A stretch of DNA of 53,637 nt from Gammaproteobacteria bacterium (GTDB lineage Bacteria > Pseudomonadota > Gammaproteobacteria > GCA-001735895), in the NCBI GenBank assembly GCA_029862125.1, contig JAOTXY010000018.1, positions 1 to 53,637 of the forward strand, in the 5' to 3' direction. The position numbers and the translations under genes were made by a program. The notes beneath the pieces are model-generated. The model had not been told where the DNA came from. It was given only the letters and a program-made list of their open reading frames with translations, and ran no database searches. This document shows, one piece after another, positions 40,530 through 49,642 of this stretch (within the stretch, counting starts at the first letter, position 1; every line of letters starts with the position of its first letter).

Positions 40530-42044
40530 ATGTCTGATCACAAACCCATCGCCGTTGGCGGCTTTCAACACGAAACCAATACTTTTGCGCCTCACCTGGC
40601 GCCATTCGAGGCGTTCGAGCGCACCGACAGCTGGCCGGGTTTGACATCTGGCGAGGCCCTGTTCGATACCATGGCAGGACTCAATATCCCGTTATCCGGA
40701 TTTATCGACTGCGCCCGGCAGGCAGGACATCAACTGCATCCACTGTGTTGGTGCTCGGCTGAGCCCAGCAGCTACGTCACGCGTGACGCGTTTGAACGTG
40801 TCGCGGATATCATCTGCTCCGGGTTACGCGCGGGCGCTTCACTGGAAGCGGTTTACCTCGATTTACACGGGGCGATGGTCACCGAGCATTACCAGGACGG
40901 TGAAGGCGAACTGCTGCGCCGCGTGCGTGAAATCGTCGGCCCCGCGATTCCAGTCGTGATTAGTCTTGACCTGCATGCCAATGTTACCGAGGGCATGGTG
41001 GAACACAGTAATGCAATGACCATTTATCGAACCTATCCACATCTCGATATGGCCGCTACCGGTGCCCGTGCCTTCGAATTGCTCGAGTTTTTACTTGCCG
41101 GCCACAGGCTGCACAAGGCCATGCGCAAAATTCCCTTCCTGTTCCCGCTCACCTCGCAATGCACGGATTTCGAACCCTGCCGTTCGCTCTATGGCGTGCT
41201 GGACGCGATGAGCCTGAGGCCGGGGATGAGTGACGTCGATTTTGCGACCGGGTTTCCACCGGCGGATATCGCCGAATGTGGTGCCGCGGTGGTCGCTTAT
41301 GGCGTCGATGAGGATACGGTCGAGGCAACCGTCGACCAGTTGTACCAGCAGGTGCTCGATGCCGAGGCGAATTTTACCTTTGAAAAGTTTTCAGCCGACC
41401 AGGCTGTATTGCGTGCAATGGACAATGACTCTGACAAGCCAGTGGTGCTTGCCGACGCGCAGGACAATCCCGGTGCCGGTGGCACCTCCGATACCACGGG
41501 ATTGCTCGAAGCGATGGTTCGTAACGGCGCAAGGCAGGCGGTGCTGGCTATTTTGTACGATCCCGAGGTTGCGGACATGGCGCATGCCGCGGGCGTTGGC
41601 GCGGTACTAGAGGTAGAGCTTGGTGCAAAGAGTGGTTTCCCGGGAGCGGAGCCTTACCGGGGGCAATTCGCCGTCGAATCCCTGGGCGATGGCCGCTTTG
41701 TTTTCACCGGTGCGATGAATCTGAATTCACATGCCGAACTGGGCAACATGGCGCTGCTGCGGGTAATCGATGACGATTCCGAAGTGCGTGTCGTCGTCGG
41801 CAGTGCGCGTTCGCAATGCCTCGATCTGGCGATGATCCGGCATCTGGGTATCGAACCGACCGAACAGAAAATCGTCGCGGTCAAGAGCACGGTACATTTC
41901 CGCGCTGACTTCGACCCGATCGCGGCCGAGACCCTGGTAGTTTTATCGCCAGGAGCGAATTACTGCAAACTGACTGACATGGAATACAGGAATTTACGCT
42001 CCGGGATACGCCTCGAACCCATGGGCCCGGTGCACGAGGGTTAA
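40530..42044 (+). CDS. M81-family metallopeptidase-like protein (MlrC type)
   Basis: A 504-residue protein of the MlrC family. The N-terminal domain opens with IAVGGFQHETNTFAP, and the metal-site segments VYLDLHGAMVTEH and VVISLDLHANVTEG are intact. The later DAQDNPGAGGTSDTT is also diagnostic. MlrC was named for hydrolysis of linearised microcystin peptides, but most relatives occur in bacteria that do not degrade that toxin, so the natural substrate is likely another small peptide or amide. Translation may be controlled by the hairpin just upstream. It is convergent with the SARP-like gene. Confidence 0.9.
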   Translation: MSDHKPIAVGGFQHETNTFAPHLAPFEAFERTDSWPGLTSGEALFDTMAGLNIPLSGFIDCARQAGHQLHPLCWCSAEPSSYVTRDAFERVADIICSGLRAGASLEAVYLDLHGAMVTEHYQDGEGELLRRVREIVGPAIPVVISLDLHANVTEGMVEHSNAMTIYRTYPHLDMAATGARAFELLEFLLAGHRLHKAMRKIPFLFPLTSQCTDFEPCRSLYGVLDAMSLRPGMSDVDFATGFPPADIAECGAAVVAYGVDEDTVEATVDQLYQQVLDAEANFTFEKFSADQAVLRAMDNDSDKPVVLADAQDNPGAGGTSDTTGLLEAMVRNGARQAVLAILYDPEVADMAHAAGVGAVLEVELGAKSGFPGAEPYRGQFAVESLGDGRFVFTGAMNLNSHAELGNMALLRVIDDDSEVRVVVGSARSQCLDLAMIRHLGIEPTEQKIVAVKSTVHFRADFDPIAAETLVVLSPGANYCKLTDMEYRNLRSGIRLEPMGPVHEG

Positions 42045-42075: not shown

Positions 42076-45000
42076 TTAAACCTTGAACCCGACTTTTTCC
42101 AGGTTCGCCCGATATCTTGCACGAACATTTTCATCGTGACTATGGCTAAGCAGCATGCCGGTTACTTTGAACGAGTTATCCAGAGCACGAATCTCGTCGG
42201 CGTAGCCCCGGGCTTCCTTTTCACGGCCGGCCTCCATCAACGCGTCGATTAAATAGAAGCGGCATAGCGGCGATTCGGGTTCAACCTCGACTCCCTTACG
42301 ATAGGTCTCTATCGCTTTTTCCAGATCACCAGTGTGCTGGTAAATGGTTCCGCCGACCAGCAGGAACCAGTTCGGACAAATAGGACTAAGCCGCAGTGAC
42401 GCTTCATGATGGGGCAGGGATTTATCATAAGCGCCGATATAGTTGTAGGCATATGCCGTCAGTGCCTGGACCTCGGCATTGCCGGGAGATATCTCGACTG
42501 CCTTGCTGCAAGCTTCGATCGCGAGTTCGGGTTCGTCACGGGAGACATGGCAGCAACTCTTGAGCATCAATGCTTCGCTAAAGTTCGGATCGAGGGCAAG
42601 CGCCTTATCCGCGGCGATCATGGCCTCGTTAATAGAGTCGTCAATCGACTCGCTAAATCCTACGTTTGCACTCTGCCAATAGGTCCAGCCGAGCACCACC
42701 CAGGCCGCGCAATAATCCGGGTCGAGCTGCAGGGCTTCGTCGATCAAACGCCGGGATTTGAGCATGTTGTCCTTGACGTAACTATCTTGCAAATCCCAGG
42801 CCATGGAGACCAATTCCCAGGCCCTGATATTTTTGGTACCCATCGAAGTTTCGCGCGCGGAGTCGCCCGAAATCAGGTGAACCTGTAATTCGACCGCGAT
42901 GTTACGGGTGATTTCATCCTGCACCGAAAATATATCCTTCAATTTGCGGTCGAAATTCTCCGTCCAGCAGTTTTCGCCGCTATGCGAATCGATCAGCTGC
43001 ACATTGACGCGAATTCGTTTGCCGCTTTTGCGCACACTGCCATCGAGGATATAGCGAACTCCCTGTTCGTCGGCGATTTCGGATATCGGCGGTTTGTGAT
43101 CCTTATAGACCATCGTCGAATGCCGCGCGACCACGCGCAGGCGCCTGATATGCGACAACATCGTGACGATGTCATTAGTAATGCCGTCGGCGAAGTATTC
43201 CTGCTCCGGATCGCCGCTCATGTTTTCGAACGGTAACACCGCGATTGACGGCATCTCGTCGGTGTCTTCGATCAGGTCATCGCAAAGCCCTGCCTGCAGC
43301 AGCAGTTCGAAGAACTTATCACTGTCTTCATCGTGCTTGTAAGGCATGGTTTCCCGCCAGAAGTCGTACCATTCTTCTCGGCTGGCCGGCATCAATGCCA
43401 TCTGCTCGCGCGCTAATTCCAGGAAACGGTGCATTTCTGTATGGGCTTCGTCTGTTCGATTCAGGCCCGCGAGGCAGGCTGCGATCTGGGCTTGCACACT
43501 GGCGGAAATATGCGCCATCGAACGAAAAGTTTCGATGGCCTTTTCGTAGTCGCCATTGAGGCGATAAATTTCACCGGCGTTCCAGCCCGCGTAAGGATGG
43601 TGGATATCCATCTGCATGCTCTTTTCGGCATATTTCAGGGCCTTGTCGATTTCTCCGGTCGCGCCGGCATGCCATGCCAGCATCGAGTAGCCGTCCGCAA
43701 GTGTTGGATTAAGCTGAACCGCCTTGCGTGCATGTACCAACGCACGATCAAACCCCCTGGTGTACAAAAGGCGTTCAGCCCTAAATGCGTGGGCTTCGGC
43801 ATTGTCAGGATTGAGTTCGAGCGCGCGACTCATATGTTTGTCCATCAGTTCGGTGGAGCGTTTGCGATCCGGGGTGCAGTTTTCATAGAGCGCCATCATG
43901 TAGGCGATGCCGAGCTTGGCATGTGCGAGAGAATTGTCGGGATCGAACGCCAGGCATTTCTCGAGTTGCTCGATCGCGATGTTGATATCGTTACCGGTAA
44001 ACAGTTCGAGGTGATAGCAGCCGCGCATGTAATAGTCGTAGCTTTGCAAATCCTTAGCTGGTTTTTGCAGCGCAATCAAGCGGGCTTCCTTGTCAACCCT
44101 GGTGCTGATGGTACCGGCAATCGTCAGGCTGAGCTCTTCTTCGAGTGAAAACAAATCGTCGATATCGGAATCGAAGCGTTTACCCCAAAGCTGGTTGCCG
44201 CTTGCTATATCTCCCAGACCTACTGTGATTCGGATTCGTTCTCCGAGCTTACGAACGCTGCCTTCGACGACGTATTTCACGTTGAGGTCAGCGGCGATCT
44301 CCTCCATGCTTCTGCTACTGTTCTTATAGGCGAAACTGGCATGACGCGATTTGATGTCTAGCCCGCCGAAAGAACTGAGTCTGAGAATAATGCTTTCAGT
44401 GATACCGTCGCTGAAATATTCCTGTTCCGGGTCGCCCGATAAATTATTGAACGGTAAAACAAGAATTGAAGGTAAATCTTCATGGACATTTTGCGACTGC
44501 TGAGACGATAACACTTCTTCGAGTCCTGCCTCGTATAGGTACTCGATCAACTTTTCATTAATTCGGGAGTCTTCGTAGGGTGCGTTGTCGACTGTGTAGG
44601 CGAGCCACTCATCACGGCTCTGCGGCATTGCCAGCATTTCGTTACGGGCAGCGGACAAAAATTCTTGCAATTCTTTACGCGCCTGCCCCGGACGGTCGAG
44701 TTTGAGGTTGGCGGCAATCGTATAAATACGGATAAAGCCGGGTGCATTAGTGGAAATGGCAATGGTTTCCAATGCCTTTTCATATTGACCACAAAAGAAC
44801 TGGGCCTCGGCCAGACACCAGTCGCACCAGTGGTGATAGGGATCCAATTGAAATCCCAGTTCGGCCGCTTGCAGGGCTTCCTCATATCTGGCCTGTGTAG
44901 TCAAATTGAGTGATTTCATTGCCAGCGCATCGGGATCGTTCGGATTGATTGCCAATGCTTTGTCGATGTATATCATCGCCTTGCCGTTTTCGCGTCTAAA

Positions 45001-46551
45001 TATCAGTTGCTCTGCATAGGCGATTAGTGCAGCGCTCACTTCGGGGCCGAGCTCGAATGCCTTGCGCGCATGTTTTCTCGCGAGCTCGAGGGAGGGTTTG
45101 TAATCTTCGACCCATCGCTCCATCCAGTTCATTGAATGACAGTAATAAAGCCACGAGTGCGCCAGCACGTTGTTCGGGTCGAGCTCGAGGCATCGGTTGA
45201 GCTCGTCGATTGCAATCACAATGTCCGGCCCGGTAAATTTTCGGTAATGGTAGGTGCCGCTTAACAACAAATCGTAGGCCTGCTGATCTGCAGCACCCTT
45301 GGCTAGTGCAATTCTTTGCAAATCGGATTCGATCTGTCCAGTCACCGTCGCGGCAATCGTGCGGCTGAGATCTTCTTCGAGATCGAACAGATCCGCGAGT
45401 TCGGCATCGTAGCGTTTACCCCAGATTTGATTCCCGCTTTGTGCTTCGATCAATTGCACGGTGATGCGAATGCGCTGCCCGGACTTGCGAATGCTACCCT
45501 CGACTACGTAATCGACGCCGAGCTCATCCGAAATCTCGCCGATGCTCTTAATCTGTTGTTTGAAAGCGAAGCTCGAATTGCGTGACTTGACCTGCAAGTC
45601 AGGAAAAGCCGACAGGTTAAGGATAATGCTGTCGGTAATGCCGTCACTGAAATACTCTTGTTCCGGGTCGCCCGACAGGTTGTCGAACGGCAGCACCGCG
45701 ATACTGTGGTCGGTTGACGACTGGGGAACGAGAGAAGACTCTTCATTGCGGTAATCGGTTGTCGCAGACGCATCGAAGGAGGGTTTCCCAGTCCCAGAAG
45801 CAGGTGCCTGTGCGGGTTTGTTCTCTCCGGCAACGATCCGGTCTCGCAGTTCGATTGTTGCCGATTCAGGTTCGACGTCGAGTTCTTCTCGCAAAGCCTG
45901 CTGGCAGCGTTTGAAAGCCTGTAGTGCGTGGCTGCGATCGCCGTTGTCGAAGTAAGCGCACATCAGCAGACGCCAGCCTGATTCGCCGAGCGGGTCCTGT
46001 TTGACCAGGCGCTCGGTGGATTTGATTGCGTTTCTGAAATCGTGACTGAGCAGTTGGGTTTCGGCCAGCTCCGACAGTATTTCGATGAACTGGCGCTTGA
46101 AGCGGCCACGTTCGCCATCGAGCCATTCCTGGCATGACGCATCGCGGATTGAAATGCCCTCGAGAAACTCCCCTTGGTAGAGATCAGCCGCGGTGATCAG
46201 GGATTCGTAGTCGCCCTCGGCGGCGAGACGTTCGAACTCGTGCACGTCGATATCGATCAATTCCGGTATCAGGCAGACCGTGGTGCGATCGACCTGCAGC
46301 ACCATGTCGGCCACGTCGCCGAGCGATTTTCTGATCGCACTCAGGCATTGGCGCAGCGAGTTGCGTGCCTGTTCTTCGCTGCGATCGCTCCACAGCAGGT
46401 TGATCAGGCGTTCGCGCGGGTGACGTAATCCAGGGGTCAGGGCGAGATAGGCCAGCAGGACTTCAGCCTTGCGCATCGACAGCGAAATTCGCGTGCCTGA
46501 TGGCAGCAAACATTCGAATTGGCCCAGTAGTATGAGTTCCAACTTCGACAT
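42076..46551 (-). CDS. SARP/BTAD regulator with three TolB-like/TPR modules
   Basis: A 1491-residue predicted cytoplasmic regulator. Residues 1-95 form an OmpR-like winged-helix DNA-binding domain and about 96-245 a BTAD domain (LYQGEFLEGISI...EEWLDGERGR-like, LDVEPESAT), together the SARP layout. Then three repeats follow, each starting with S-I-x-V-L-P-F-x-N-x-SGDPEQEYF and a DGIT (near residues 281, 690 and 1101) and continuing as a TolB-like/adenylate-cyclase-associated fold of about 135 residues, each followed by several TPRs. Triplication of that module is unusual. The start has GGGGA upstream. The target genes and signal are unknown; an 11-bp direct repeat upstream may be its own operator. 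Confidence 0.88.
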   Translation of the reverse strand: MSKLELILLGQFECLLPSGTRISLSMRKAEVLLAYLALTPGLRHPRERLINLLWSDRSEEQARNSLRQCLSAIRKSLGDVADMVLQVDRTTVCLIPELIDIDVHEFERLAAEGDYESLITAADLYQGEFLEGISIRDASCQEWLDGERGRFKRQFIEILSELAETQLLSHDFRNAIKSTERLVKQDPLGESGWRLLMCAYFDNGDRSHALQAFKRCQQALREELDVEPESATIELRDRIVAGENKPAQAPASGTGKPSFDASATTDYRNEESSLVPQSSTDHSIAVLPFDNLSGDPEQEYFSDGITDSIILNLSAFPDLQVKSRNSSFAFKQQIKSIGEISDELGVDYVVEGSIRKSGQRIRITVQLIEAQSGNQIWGKRYDAELADLFDLEEDLSRTIAATVTGQIESDLQRIALAKGAADQQAYDLLLSGTYHYRKFTGPDIVIAIDELNRCLELDPNNVLAHSWLYYCHSMNWMERWVEDYKPSLELARKHARKAFELGPEVSAALIAYAEQLIFRRENGKAMIYIDKALAINPNDPDALAMKSLNLTTQARYEEALQAAELGFQLDPYHHWCDWCLAEAQFFCGQYEKALETIAISTNAPGFIRIYTIAANLKLDRPGQARKELQEFLSAARNEMLAMPQSRDEWLAYTVDNAPYEDSRINEKLIEYLYEAGLEEVLSSQQSQNVHEDLPSILVLPFNNLSGDPEQEYFSDGITESIILRLSSFGGLDIKSRHASFAYKNSSRSMEEIAADLNVKYVVEGSVRKLGERIRITVGLGDIASGNQLWGKRFDSDIDDLFSLEEELSLTIAGTISTRVDKEARLIALQKPAKDLQSYDYYMRGCYHLELFTGNDINIAIEQLEKCLAFDPDNSLAHAKLGIAYMMALYENCTPDRKRSTELMDKHMSRALELNPDNAEAHAFRAERLLYTRGFDRALVHARKAVQLNPTLADGYSMLAWHAGATGEIDKALKYAEKSMQMDIHHPYAGWNAGEIYRLNGDYEKAIETFRSMAHISASVQAQIAACLAGLNRTDEAHTEMHRFLELAREQMALMPASREEWYDFWRETMPYKHDEDSDKFFELLLQAGLCDDLIEDTDEMPSIAVLPFENMSGDPEQEYFADGITNDIVTMLSHIRRLRVVARHSTMVYKDHKPPISEIADEQGVRYILDGSVRKSGKRIRVNVQLIDSHSGENCWTENFDRKLKDIFSVQDEITRNIAVELQVHLISGDSARETSMGTKNIRAWELVSMAWDLQDSYVKDNMLKSRRLIDEALQLDPDYCAAWVVLGWTYWQSANVGFSESIDDSINEAMIAADKALALDPNFSEALMLKSCCHVSRDEPELAIEACSKAVEISPGNAEVQALTAYAYNYIGAYDKSLPHHEASLRLSPICPNWFLLVGGTIYQHTGDLEKAIETYRKGVEVEPESPLCRFYLIDALMEAGREKEARGYADEIRALDNSFKVTGMLLSHSHDENVRARYRANLEKVGFKV

Positions 46552-46621
46552 CTGGTTTCCCCGGAAGCGAATTTCAGATTATTAATTGACTAAAATACGT
46601 TTAAAATCAGTTAGTTATAAA

Positions 46622-46643
46622 ATTTAATGATTATTTAATGATT
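46622..46643. repeat. 11-bp direct repeat upstream of the SARP-like gene
   Basis: ATTTAATGATT occurs twice in direct tandem (46622-46632, 46633-46643) and a third partial ATTT follows. It lies 71-92 bases before the SARP-like gene start and about 97 before the small gene at 46740. SARP and OmpR-type winged helices bind direct repeats with 11-base spacing, so this is a reasonable autoregulatory site. AT-richness of the region is a caution. Confidence 0.5.
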
Positions 46644-46739
46644 ATTTTGGGTTATTTAACGCGATTCGGCAAGGGATTTAACGGGGCATGACGAGAATGA
46701 TCACCGTCGCAACAACAAACCCGTAACGAGGCACCCGAA

Positions 46740-46943
46740 ATGAGAAAAGTCAAAAACAACATCAGCGTAAGCAACCCGGCCCTTATGTTTGCCCAGGGCG
46801 TTGAAAGCCTGATCAGCGATCCGATGTATCATCCGTCTCAAAGCGATTACCAGGAATCAGATCGCCTGCAGCGCCTTGCCAACAAGCAGGATTCACGCGG
46901 TAACCTCTTCAGCAGCCTGATGCGACAGTTCGCCAATCAATAA
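46740..46943 (+). CDS. Small protein of unknown function
   Basis: A 67-residue, soluble, basic protein (MRKVKNNISVSNPALMFAQG start; SSLMRQFANQ end) with no membrane or signal segment. A GAGG precedes the ATG by about ten bases and a hairpin follows the stop, which supports it being expressed. The family is not recognised. It is divergent from the SARP-like gene and may share its upstream region. Confidence 0.55.
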   Translation: MRKVKNNISVSNPALMFAQGVESLISDPMYHPSQSDYQESDRLQRLANKQDSRGNLFSSLMRQFANQ

Positions 46944-47062: not shown

Positions 47063-47126
47063 ATCGTTGCAAAATACAAGCCTTGATGTGCATCCAACAG
47101 GTGGCTGGATCCGATACGCGGGACAA

Positions 47127-49022
47127 ATGAGTTATTGCTGCAGGGGGCGCCGATTTTCCGTTTGCCTCGGTTTGGTGTGCCTGGTGCTGGTAAGTGTTTG
47201 GCCGGCTGCCCTGAAGGCACAGGCGGAAATGCAAATCGGTGTACTCGCATTTCGCGGCAAGCAGGATGCACTCGAACGATGGTCACCAACGGCAAAATAT
47301 CTCAGCCAACGTATAGATGATCACGGCTTTAAAATCGTACCTTTGACCCTCGAGGGCATGCGCTCTCATGTCGAGCAGGACAAACTCGATTTTGTGCTGA
47401 CCAACACCGGGAATTACGTGGTACTCGAGGACGCGTTCGGCATATCGCGTCTGGCTACCCTGAAGGTGCGTCACCTGGGCCAGGATTTCACCCAGTTCGG
47501 TGCGGTAATTTTCACTCGTCGCGATCACCCGGCACTGAATCGAATCGCGGATATCGCGGACCATACCATGATGGCAGTTAGTCGGAACGCATTTGGCGGA
47601 TTCCAGATGGCCTGGCGCGAAATGATCGAGGTCGGGGTCGATCCTTTTGCGGATCTCGAGCGTCTCAGGTTTATCGGCTTTCCACAGGACGAAATTGTCT
47701 ACTCGGTGCTCGAGCGCAGGGTCGATGCTGGCACCGTGCGTAGCGGTACGCTGGAACGCATGGCCGCTGAGGGGCTGATCGATATCGGTAGTATCAAGGT
47801 GCTCGGTGCGAAGGATAGCGATGCTTTCCCATTCCTGCACAGTACCCGGCTTTATCCCGAGTGGCCATTCGCCAAGGCGCGCAAAACGTCTGAAGAGCTC
47901 GCGCAGCGCGTCGCGATCGCGCTGCTGCAGTTAGAACCGGATAGCACTGCCGCCGCCAGCGCCTTCGCCGCGGGCTGGACCATTCCGCTCGATTACGGCC
48001 CGGTGCACGAACTGTTTCGCCAGCTCGAAATCGCCCCCTATGTATACCTGGGTAAGCCGAGTCTTACCTCGGTCTGGCGGGAATACAAGGGCTGGATCAG
48101 TTTCAGCCTGGCAATGATGTTGCTGTTAATGATGATGCTGGCTCTGATAGGCCGCGCCAACCGGCGCATTTCTCAGTCCGAACTGAAGTTCCGCGAGGAA
48201 GCCAACCAGCGCAGGCAGGCCCAGGAACTGCTGGCAAAACATAAGGACGAACTCGAGGCAAGGGTCGCGGAACGTACGGCGGAACTGGCCGAGAGTAATC
48301 GGCTGGCGCAGGAAAACCAGGCACAGCTGGCGCATATTTCCCGGCTCAATACCATGGGCGAAATGGCTACCGGGATTGCGCATGAACTTAACCAGCCGCT
48401 GACCGCGATACTGAACTACAGCAACGGCAGCCTGCGCTTGCTGCAAAAGCGGGGCAATGGCGATTCCGAGTTGCACGAGGCCATCGTTAACATCGGTAAC
48501 GATGCGCGCCGGGCCGCGGACATCATTAAAGGCCTGCGCGAGTTCATCAAACGCGGCGAGCACAAACATGAGCACTTTAATCTGCGCAATTGCATCGATT
48601 CCGCGGTTGACCTGCTGCACCCCCGACTGGATCAGTATGACATCGAAGTCAGGATTAACTGTACTGACGATGTTACCGATATCGTCGCTGACCGGGTGCA
48701 GATCGAGCAGGTCGTCGTAAACTTGTTGGTTAACGCTGTCGACGCCGTCGGGGCCGCAGATCAGCCGGCAAAGGAAATCGGGATCGACATCGTCAGCACC
48801 GACTCCGGGGCAGTGGCCGTGGCGGTGAGCGATAACGGCGCGGGATTGCCCGCAAACGTGATAGAGCATCTGTTCGATCCGTTTTTTACAACCAAGTCCG
48901 AGGGCATGGGTATGGGGCTTTCGATCAGTCGCTCGATCGTCGAAGCGCATGGCGGCACGATCGAATACCTGGTCGACGAAGCACAACGTCCGACCTTCCG
49001 CTTCACGCTGCCGATAACATGA
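47127..49022 (+). CDS. Sensor histidine kinase with PhnD/TtrS-type sensor domain
   Basis: A 632-residue kinase from the ATG at 47127. After an N-terminal hydrophobic segment (to about KAQA, residue 33), a periplasmic PhnD-like binding domain spans about 35-305 (IGVLAFRGKQDALERWSPTAKYLSQRI...DFVLTNTGNYVVLE). A membrane helix (about 333-350) and a coiled coil precede the DHp domain with phospho-acceptor His419 (GIAHELNQPLTAILNYS) and the ATP-binding domain (NLLVNAVDAVG, GMGMGLSISRSI). The layout is that of TtrS, the tetrathionate sensor, and similar sulfur or anion sensors. The gene overlaps the cognate regulator by four bases. Confidence 0.87.
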   Translation: MSYCCRGRRFSVCLGLVCLVLVSVWPAALKAQAEMQIGVLAFRGKQDALERWSPTAKYLSQRIDDHGFKIVPLTLEGMRSHVEQDKLDFVLTNTGNYVVLEDAFGISRLATLKVRHLGQDFTQFGAVIFTRRDHPALNRIADIADHTMMAVSRNAFGGFQMAWREMIEVGVDPFADLERLRFIGFPQDEIVYSVLERRVDAGTVRSGTLERMAAEGLIDIGSIKVLGAKDSDAFPFLHSTRLYPEWPFAKARKTSEELAQRVAIALLQLEPDSTAAASAFAAGWTIPLDYGPVHELFRQLEIAPYVYLGKPSLTSVWREYKGWISFSLAMMLLLMMMLALIGRANRRISQSELKFREEANQRRQAQELLAKHKDELEARVAERTAELAESNRLAQENQAQLAHISRLNTMGEMATGIAHELNQPLTAILNYSNGSLRLLQKRGNGDSELHEAIVNIGNDARRAADIIKGLREFIKRGEHKHEHFNLRNCIDSAVDLLHPRLDQYDIEVRINCTDDVTDIVADRVQIEQVVVNLLVNAVDAVGAADQPAKEIGIDIVSTDSGAVAVAVSDNGAGLPANVIEHLFDPFFTTKSEGMGMGLSISRSIVEAHGGTIEYLVDEAQRPTFRFTLPIT

Positions 49023-49642
49023 AAGCGGAAGATCAAAACGAAGTGGTCTACGTGGTCGATGACGACCCCTCCGCGCGCGAATCCCTGTGCTGGTTGCTCG
49101 GCACCGAGGGTATCGCGTCACAGGCTTTCGCTTCGGCCCAGGCGTTTCTCGAATACTGGAGCAGCGACTGCAACGGCTGCATTATGGTCGATATTCGCAT
49201 GCCCGGTAAAAGCGGACTGCAGCTCCAGGAAGAACTCAATGCCAGGCATAACCTGATGCCTGTTATCATGTTGACCGGCCATGCCGATGTTCCGGTTGCG
49301 ATCAGGGCAATGAAACAGGGGGCGTACGATTTCCTGGAAAAGCCTTATGCCGACGAGGAATTGCTGACCTGTGTCAAAACCGCGCTCGAGCTGGGTCGTG
49401 AAATCAGTGATGCCGAGAGTGAGAAAAACAGGGTGGCTGGCGCGCTTGAAAATCTCACCGAACGTGAACGTGAAGTCATGTGCCTGGTGGTGGAAGGCAA
49501 TACCAACAAGGTTGTGGCGGCTCAGCTTGGAATCTCCGCAAAGACCGTGGAAATACACCGCGCCCGGGTTATGGAGAAGACCGCCGCCAGGTCGTTGTCC
49601 GAACTGGTCCGTATCTGCTTGATATTAAAGGATAAACTTTGA
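49019..49642 (+). CDS. FixJ/LuxR-type response regulator (TtrR-like)
   Basis: A 207-residue regulator. The receiver has phospho-acceptor Asp58 (CIMVDIRMPGKSG) and the conserved Lys (FLEKPY), and the C-terminal LuxR-type helix-turn-helix (about 140-200, LTEREREVMCLVVEGNTNKVVAAQLGISAKTVEIHRARV) is intact. The ATG overlaps the kinase stop by four bases. A palindrome in the next promoter (49657-49666) may be its target. Confidence 0.92.
   Translation: MKAEDQNEVVYVVDDDPSARESLCWLLGTEGIASQAFASAQAFLEYWSSDCNGCIMVDIRMPGKSGLQLQEELNARHNLMPVIMLTGHADVPVAIRAMKQGAYDFLEKPYADEELLTCVKTALELGREISDAESEKNRVAGALENLTEREREVMCLVVEGNTNKVVAAQLGISAKTVEIHRARVMEKTAARSLSELVRICLILKDKL

Follow-up and report, generated by a model that had tools for sequence, protein, structure and literature searches.

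What does a transcriptional regulator sense with three copies of a sensor-like module, and what does it control? The question is raised by a stretch of DNA from Gammaproteobacteria bacterium (the window: 53,637 nucleotides; NCBI GenBank assembly GCA_029862125.1, contig JAOTXY010000018.1), in which a single open frame of 1491 codons encodes a protein with a SARP-type head and three TolB-like/TPR (TolB-TPR) modules. Many cyclases and regulators carry TolB-TPR modules. We consider it about as likely as not that the protein is a cytosolic one-component activator, in which an exchangeable array of CadC-fold sensors is joined to a fixed local operator and a small open reading frame (ORF) as target. 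The regulator and its parts are as follows; the module boundaries were set by hand and each module spans about 400 residues.

42076–46551, minus strand: SARP-type regulator gene, 1491 residues
46309–46488, minus strand: winged-helix DNA-binding region (Trans_reg_C), residues 22–81
45835–46245, minus strand: BTAD domain, residues 103–239
44473–45711, minus strand: module M1, class A, residues 281–693, TolB-like plus TPR, CadC-like predicted fold
43261–44472, minus strand: module M2, class B, residues 694–1097
42079–43260, minus strand: module M3, class C, residues 1098–1491, terminal, cyclase-type

The original prediction, which gave no strand, described a 1491-residue protein with a SARP DNA-binding and BTAD region and three TolB-like/TPR modules, and Pfam, NCBIfam and self-alignment agree with it. 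Of 37 Pfam families, the best 25 included BTAD, above its cut-off (84.8 bits), and Trans_reg_C, 1 bit below its own (25.2 against 26.2 bits). The AfsR structure 8hvr_I aligned to residues 22–242 and the EmbR structure 2fez to residues 3–252. By this predicted head, a winged helix followed by BTAD, the protein belongs to the SARP regulators. The TolB-like signal appeared in three stretches with FlgO, in three with the NCBIfam model TIGR02800 (TolB; 58.7 bits, cut-off 343) and in two with TolB_N, together with many TPR models. In the self-alignment, M1 and M2 were 44% identical over 395 residues (E = 2e-114), M1 and M3 31% over 377 residues (E = 2e-50), and M2 and M3 31% over 320 residues (E = 6e-48), a threefold repeat far above chance expectation. 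The motif SGDPEQEYF, said to open each module, was found from residues 293, 705 and 1112.

A structure model of M1 was built from 24 aligned modules and had a mean predicted local distance difference test score (pLDDT) of 88.9. Its four best matches in the PDB were all of the CadC periplasmic sensor (3ly8, 3ly9, 3ly7 and 3lya), with probability 1.00, template modelling scores of 0.66–0.68 by target and 0.53–0.55 by query, and 11–12% identity; TPR superhelices ranked behind CadC, and TolB first appeared at rank 28. M1 is predicted to have a CadC-like sensor fold, with an alpha/beta domain and helical repeats; for the suggestion of a multi-ligand or scaffold sensor, this favours a sensor. The CadC sensor consists of an alpha-beta sandwich and a TPR domain, according to PMC9214523. 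The HilA/EilA profile aligned to residues 279–572 with 91 bits, well short of the 589 bits of its cut-off. Unlike CadC, HilA and EilA, the window protein is SARP-headed and has a repeated sensor, and its sequence, on reading, shows no evident transmembrane helix ahead of the sensor: linker residues 240–281 are polar, and no hydrophobic stretch is apparent from the head to M1. The sensor part appears cytosolic, and M1 is predicted to work like the sensor of CadC, yet the protein is not CadC.

An orthologous head was found in 20 of the 31 genomes of the genus (head profile, E ≤ 1e-40), where 17 of the 18 named records are labelled MAG. Where it could be read, the number of modules ranged from 0 to 7. 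Complete genes had two (G005, G020), three (the window, G023, G002), four (G012) or five modules (G025), and G017 had seven, across two contigs that overlap by exactly 94 bp. The remaining loci are partial or reduced: G015 and G010 show three modules with the last one cut, G022 shows five with the head cut, the gene is cut within the first or second module in G030, G008 and G027, and the contig ends before the modules in G004, G009 and G016. G003 looks degraded: its SARP region is shortened and an early stop follows its single module (L050 9043–10647). In G013 and G029 a stop codon follows the SARP region and there are no modules; these free-standing SARP regions, of 254 and 266 residues, are at L054 9437–10201 and L055 9235–10035, at loci that also lack the small ORF. 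G028 and G024 have module pieces without an orthologous head. Three modules are the number of the window species only, not a fixed architecture.

A tree of 50 modules, of which 47 come from arrays or array pieces and 3 from other proteins, showed three classes, A (M1-like), B (M2-like) and C (M3-like). Wherever an array or piece contained more than one class, the order was A, then B, then C (13 of 13 cases; shuffles within arrays put chance at 3e-11), with unclassed modules omitted and the classes taken from the tree of these same modules, except for the cut last module of G010, which was classed by similarity. Class C is missing from G002, and the array of G010 begins with an additional module that belongs to neither A nor B. 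Among finer subtypes, the arrays are all ordered subsets of one longer order, for which a hand count put chance at about 1 in 20; this colinearity was left as an idea.

The regulatory region is laid out as follows.

46645–46639 and 46634–46628, minus strand: heptamers ATAATCA of the candidate operator, a direct repeat
46623–46643, minus strand: 11-bp direct repeat AATCATTAAATAATCATTAAA, candidate SARP operator, between the regulator and the small ORF
46614–46619, minus strand: candidate −10 element TATAAC, 8 bp past the 3′ heptamer
46728–46731, plus strand: GAGG, by direct reading a putative ribosome-binding site for the small ORF
46740–46943, plus strand: small ORF of 67 residues, divergent from the regulator, a family without database match that is conserved beside SARP loci

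The regulator promoter reads ATAATCA-N4-ATAATCA-N8-TATAAC. According to PMC10936776, the direct repeats of SARP promoters are spaced by 11 or 22 bp, and 8 bp separate the 3′ one from the −10 site; PMC5930380 describes heptamers with spacers of 4 nucleotides. In sequence, the window spacing matches the former rule exactly. The total score of the repeat was reached by 2 of 2000 mononucleotide shuffles. In a looser form, [AG]A[AT]?C[AG]TTAAA[AT]AATC[AG]TTAAA, the repeat was present in 19 of the 20 upstream regions, the exception being G013. Scanned with one strict consensus, the 3.7-Mb genome of the window species, about 91% complete, held the repeat once at up to 3 mismatches, here and without mismatch; a backwards control pattern also gave 1 match. 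As this is the only such site found in its own genome at that tolerance, the regulator looks like a local one, acting on its own gene and on the small ORF.

The conserved intergenic region upstream of the regulator gene was followed by a divergent ORF of 66–74 codons at 18 of the 20 SARP loci. The two orthologues without modules, in G013 and G029, belong to genomes with no copy of the small ORF anywhere. Across the 17 loci with readable modules, 15 with (including degraded G003 and split G022) and 2 without, the association of small ORF and modules had a Fisher p of 0.007, computed by hand and with kinship ignored. A profile search gave 23 copies in 20 of the 31 genomes, of which 18 adjoin the SARP gene and one, at a contig end in G001, adjoins the same dehydrogenase and TtrS genes as found beside other copies. 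Three further copies, in G025, G016 and G007 (L286 4606–4896, L287 1984–2259 and L290 178–453), are divergent beside another regulator with one TolB-TPR module, whose Trans_reg_C head was confirmed by Pfam in all three (57–58 bits). The remaining copy is a shortened orphan in G005 (L288 3999–4178), with no TolB-TPR regulator within the 9 kb fetched.

Outside the genus, none of 10 further genomes from the same bacterial family had the small ORF, and of 4 matches among 369 genomes of the class, 3 belong to this genus and 1 is weak (E = 0.006). Searches of Pfam, PHROGs and NCBIfam, with E values up to 1 allowed, gave the small-ORF family no match. Over 153 pairs, mean identity was 51%, with a proportion of synonymous differences (pS) of 0.67 and of nonsynonymous differences (pN) of 0.31; judged by these values, the small ORF is constrained as a coding gene yet fast-evolving. 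It is probably the main target of the regulator. A phage, virus or plasmid origin was rejected, with no PHROG match, no confirmed relative in virus contigs and, from one query, no plasmid match. The small ORFs of G022 (L167 5031–5291) and G017 (L062, contig C261 772–972) are 100% identical although the species differ; this may be a recent transfer or a misbinned contig and was not used as evidence of transfer.

Closely related species were compared by rpoB, gyrB and parE, which place the window species with G008 and G030 as near siblings, and likewise G015 with G017 and G028. Near-sibling species with 97.6–99.1% identity in core proteins do not agree in the number or type of their modules; their DNA-binding regions have changed less. 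Between the window and G030, gyrB was 98.8% identical (pS 0.16) and parE 99.1% (pS 0.12), against 93% for the SARP region (pS 0.26), 97% for the neighbouring DsrE (pS 0.40) and 65% for the first module (pS 0.81). G017 and G015 share rpoB at 98.5% and parE at 97.9%, yet have 7 and 3 modules, with best module pairs at 50–69%. Since their SARP regions (77%), TtrS (67%) and TtrR (77%) diverged as well, the whole block was probably replaced. Between G017 and G028, three module pairs were 86–90% identical and the terminal modules 67%. The opposite was seen as well: G025/G023 had core pS of 0.55–0.60, SARP 0.35 and one module 0.37, and G025/G005 had core pS of 0.60–0.61 and one module 0.38. These comparisons point to recombinational exchange, involving the whole locus, rather than fast point mutation as the source of the module differences.

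Within modules, the TPR part was the more divergent. For class A (18 modules, 153 pairs with orthologues and paralogues mixed), the TolB part had a mean identity of 83%, pN 0.10, pS 0.64 and mean pN/pS 0.16, and the TPR part a mean identity of 51%, pN 0.31 and pS 0.71. The same trend was weaker in class B (TolB 65%, TPR 48%) and class C (TolB 72%, TPR 55%). As a control, five pairs of single-module relatives, presumed orthologues from the tree, had 79–89% identity in TolB and 69–79% in TPR, at pS 0.56–0.74.

In the proposed mechanism, the SARP region (DNA-binding domain and BTAD) would bind the 11-bp direct repeat as a side-by-side dimer and would recruit RNA polymerase to the promoter of its own gene; the promoter of the small ORF would probably be served in the same way. 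The three C-terminal modules would be CadC-fold sensors, in each of which an alpha/beta TolB-like part is conserved and a TPR part varies more, and a ligand on one or more TPR parts would alter the availability of the SARP head for side-by-side binding at the repeat. This ligand is possibly the small protein itself, which may be ligand, output or both. Duplication, deletion and between-species exchange of whole modules would retune the input and leave the operator and DNA target fixed. The computations show the domains, the classes and order of the modules, the range of copy number, the discordant divergence, the conserved repeat with its scarcity and the association with the small ORF, and they predict the CadC-like fold for M1 only; activation, autoregulation, ligand binding by the TPR parts and exchange between species as the mechanism are what we infer. 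The locus would then illustrate how the input of a regulator can evolve through the shuffling of modules without a change on its output side. With relatives of two to seven modules, one conserved candidate operator and one small partner gene, the question of what TolB-TPR modules sense becomes directly testable at a single promoter.

Several points weigh against this reading. The class A comparison mixes orthologues with paralogues, and in 7 same-subtype pairs (TPR 79–89%, TolB 83–94%) there was no TPR excess, so that the contrast lies between subtypes. Entropy was high on both helices of each TPR repeat, which could reflect relaxed constraint; because of this the ligand groove cannot be named as the target, and diversification limited to the TPR groove was dropped as unsupported. 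Sibling pS was elevated over the whole locus, in modules and neighbours alike, as in the DsrE comparison with G030 given above; for the window and G008, TtrS, TtrR and SARP had pS of 0.29–0.32 against 0.20 for the core. The full spacing of repeat and −10 element was top-scoring in only 12 of the 20 loci and not in G015, G002, G005, G025, G003, G029, G013 and G004, in some by a shift within the same box, and the operator scan used a single strict consensus on an incomplete genome. A full-length model of a two-module protein was poor (pLDDT 65.6) and was set aside. Finally, in 10 of the 20 SARP genomes the contig breaks off within the array or shortly ahead of it.

The neighbouring genes bear on the first alternative. 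In the window they are:

40530–42044, plus strand: MlrC-like protein, convergent neighbour on the 3′ side (NF041767, 149 bits, far below cut-off), in 9 of 22 related stretches
47067–49022, plus strand: TtrS-like sensor kinase with a phosphonate-binding domain, in 9 of 22 related stretches
49019–49642, plus strand: FixJ/TtrR-like response regulator, in 8 of 22 related stretches

The MlrC-like gene is labelled M81 here, a label that we presume fits. The 22 related stretches come from 21 genomes, and several end early; DsrE and an aldehyde dehydrogenase were each found in 8 of them. Of the 19 head-bearing relatives, 13 share with the others, in the stretches fetched, one or more out of five neighbours (aldehyde dehydrogenase, M81, TtrS, TtrR, DsrE). 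None of the five was present at G027, G010, G029, G013, G016 and G009. Four of these (G027, G010, G016, G009) are tied to the locus by the repeat and the small ORF; G029 has the repeat without the small ORF and shares three other window genes, and G013 has neither repeat nor small ORF. As an observation on its own, the TtrS/TtrR pair (47067–49642, plus strand) had pS of 0.22–0.32 between the window and G023 or G020, far below the core values of 0.55–0.77, which suggests transfer of the locus between species.

An ordinary CadC-like metabolite sensor serving the aldehyde dehydrogenase, TtrS/TtrR or M81 neighbours, with the small ORF incidental, is the alternative that survives best, and we regard it as unlikely. 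It would suit the CadC-like predicted fold and the stretches in which the dehydrogenase lies near the small ORF. The dehydrogenase is, however, missing from the window and other loci where regulator, repeat and small ORF remain, and being found in only 8 of 22 stretches it is not an obligatory target of the regulator. Nor does this alternative sit well with a repeat that was found once in the genome, or with relatives of the small ORF beside a second TolB-TPR regulator with a different head.

A little less likely again is a scaffold or spacer that grows in length: modules would multiply and decay near-neutrally through unequal recombination, and nothing but the SARP region, perhaps with the terminal class C module, would matter. 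The range of 0 to 7 modules fits such a process, TPR variation is not limited to one helix, and the two module-less SARP regions still look constrained (pN 0.11–0.21 at pS 0.49–0.63). Against a spacer stand the strong constraint on the TolB-like parts, the class order kept in all 13 arrays or pieces, and the absence of the small ORF from both loci that lost their modules.

We are doubtful that the locus is a hypervariable receptor array, with constant DNA-binding and TolB-like parts and exchanged, variable TPR parts reading the fast-evolving small protein or a foreign counterpart; if true, it would be a bacterial recognition switch built as a constant/variable receptor. A related proposal, that the variable TPR parts recognise variable proteins or peptides of foreign cells or neighbours (non-self or kin recognition) and the small ORF is an effector or signal, seems improbable. 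Modules that differ between near-sibling species, the signs of exchange between species, and a small ORF that is fast-evolving and, apart from one weak match, confined to the genus all fit recognition; the searches of Pfam, PHROGs and NCBIfam gave the small ORF no mark of toxin or immunity, it had no relative confirmed in virus contigs or found in plasmids by the one query, and the neighbours are enzymes, transport and two-component genes. That the variation in module number is mostly an assembly artefact of draft metagenome genomes is very improbable: the contig ends mentioned above speak for it, and against it stand seven genes complete within contigs, with 2, 2, 3, 3, 3, 4 and 5 modules, within-array copies at most 67% identical and so too different to collapse, and the exact 94-bp overlap of the two contigs of the seven-module gene.

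The origin of the modules can be followed on a second tree of 43 rows, to which modules of other proteins were added. Classes A and B formed one group, which also held the second module of G248 and the first of G010. Class C lay among cyclase-type modules of the genus, the nearest being two from the same genome as the window and one from G026; in one of the former, on contig C168, Pfam recognised a Guanylate_cyc domain. Forcing 20 array modules into one group cost 110 log units (approximately unbiased (AU) test, p = 4e-69), and forcing the 15 non-C array modules cost 1 log unit (p = 0.44); these p values are not literal, the group having been named after the first tree was seen, with the unclassed G010_m1 included and long branches present. 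Since the 20-module group was rejected and the group without class C tolerated, M1 and M2 have, on these trees, a common history of duplication, and M3 entered by recruitment from, or exchange with, a different TolB-TPR lineage. A single internal duplication as the origin of all three modules was rejected by the tree and the AU test, so that the suggestion of growth by internal duplication holds for M1 and M2 and fails for M3. SGDPEQEYF is not specific to the regulator and is therefore no evidence of recent duplication: in six single-module relatives from the same genome, four forms differ at one or two of the nine positions and two at four or five.

With the SARP/AfsR-type regulators (AfsR, EmbR, PimR) the protein shares the N-terminal winged helix and BTAD; its candidate operator resembles theirs, by sequence, in the 11-bp repeat spacing and the 8 bp to the −10 site, the rule being that of PMC10936776. 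The protein differs in its C-terminal part: neither NOD nor FHA was among the best 25 of 37 Pfam families, and modules fill residues 281–1491. Because no NOD domain was seen, the protein is, by its domain content, not AfsR-type. Cyclase-type TolB-TPR proteins have a module of similar length (394–399 residues), with which M3 groups, but theirs is single and their head catalytic; the window protein has a SARP head, and no cyclase catalytic domain was among those same 25 families. The genome of the window species has at least six single-module proteins of the cyclase type. Guanylate_cyc was over its cut-off (E = 1e-8) in two of six, the other four being called cyclase-type by reading their heads, and contig C168 (L003, L005) carries two different cyclase-type TolB-TPR genes close together.

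Outside the genus, the multi-module SARP architecture is likely rare, within the sample taken. A profile spanning the module junction was run on 398 genomes of the phylum, with up to 8 candidates scored per genome, and among the matches listed only the window had junction-spanning ones. The head profile was run over 369 genomes of the class and matched 28 non-genus genomes; 10 of these were fetched and read, and one (G248) has a two-module SARP protein. No description of a SARP with several TolB-TPR modules was found among titles and abstract beginnings, a coverage that leaves out most subscription journals. The claim that three modules in one SARP protein are unusual stands for the outside sample and gives way within the genus, where the number varies. 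Two proteins come closest to the window regulator. A 682-residue paralogue on contig C1 of its own genome is 40% identical and has the same head and module type, but one module. The G248 protein, of 1109 residues, has a SARP head with two modules and comes from another family of the class; on the 43-row tree its second module lies near the base of the A/B group and its first elsewhere.

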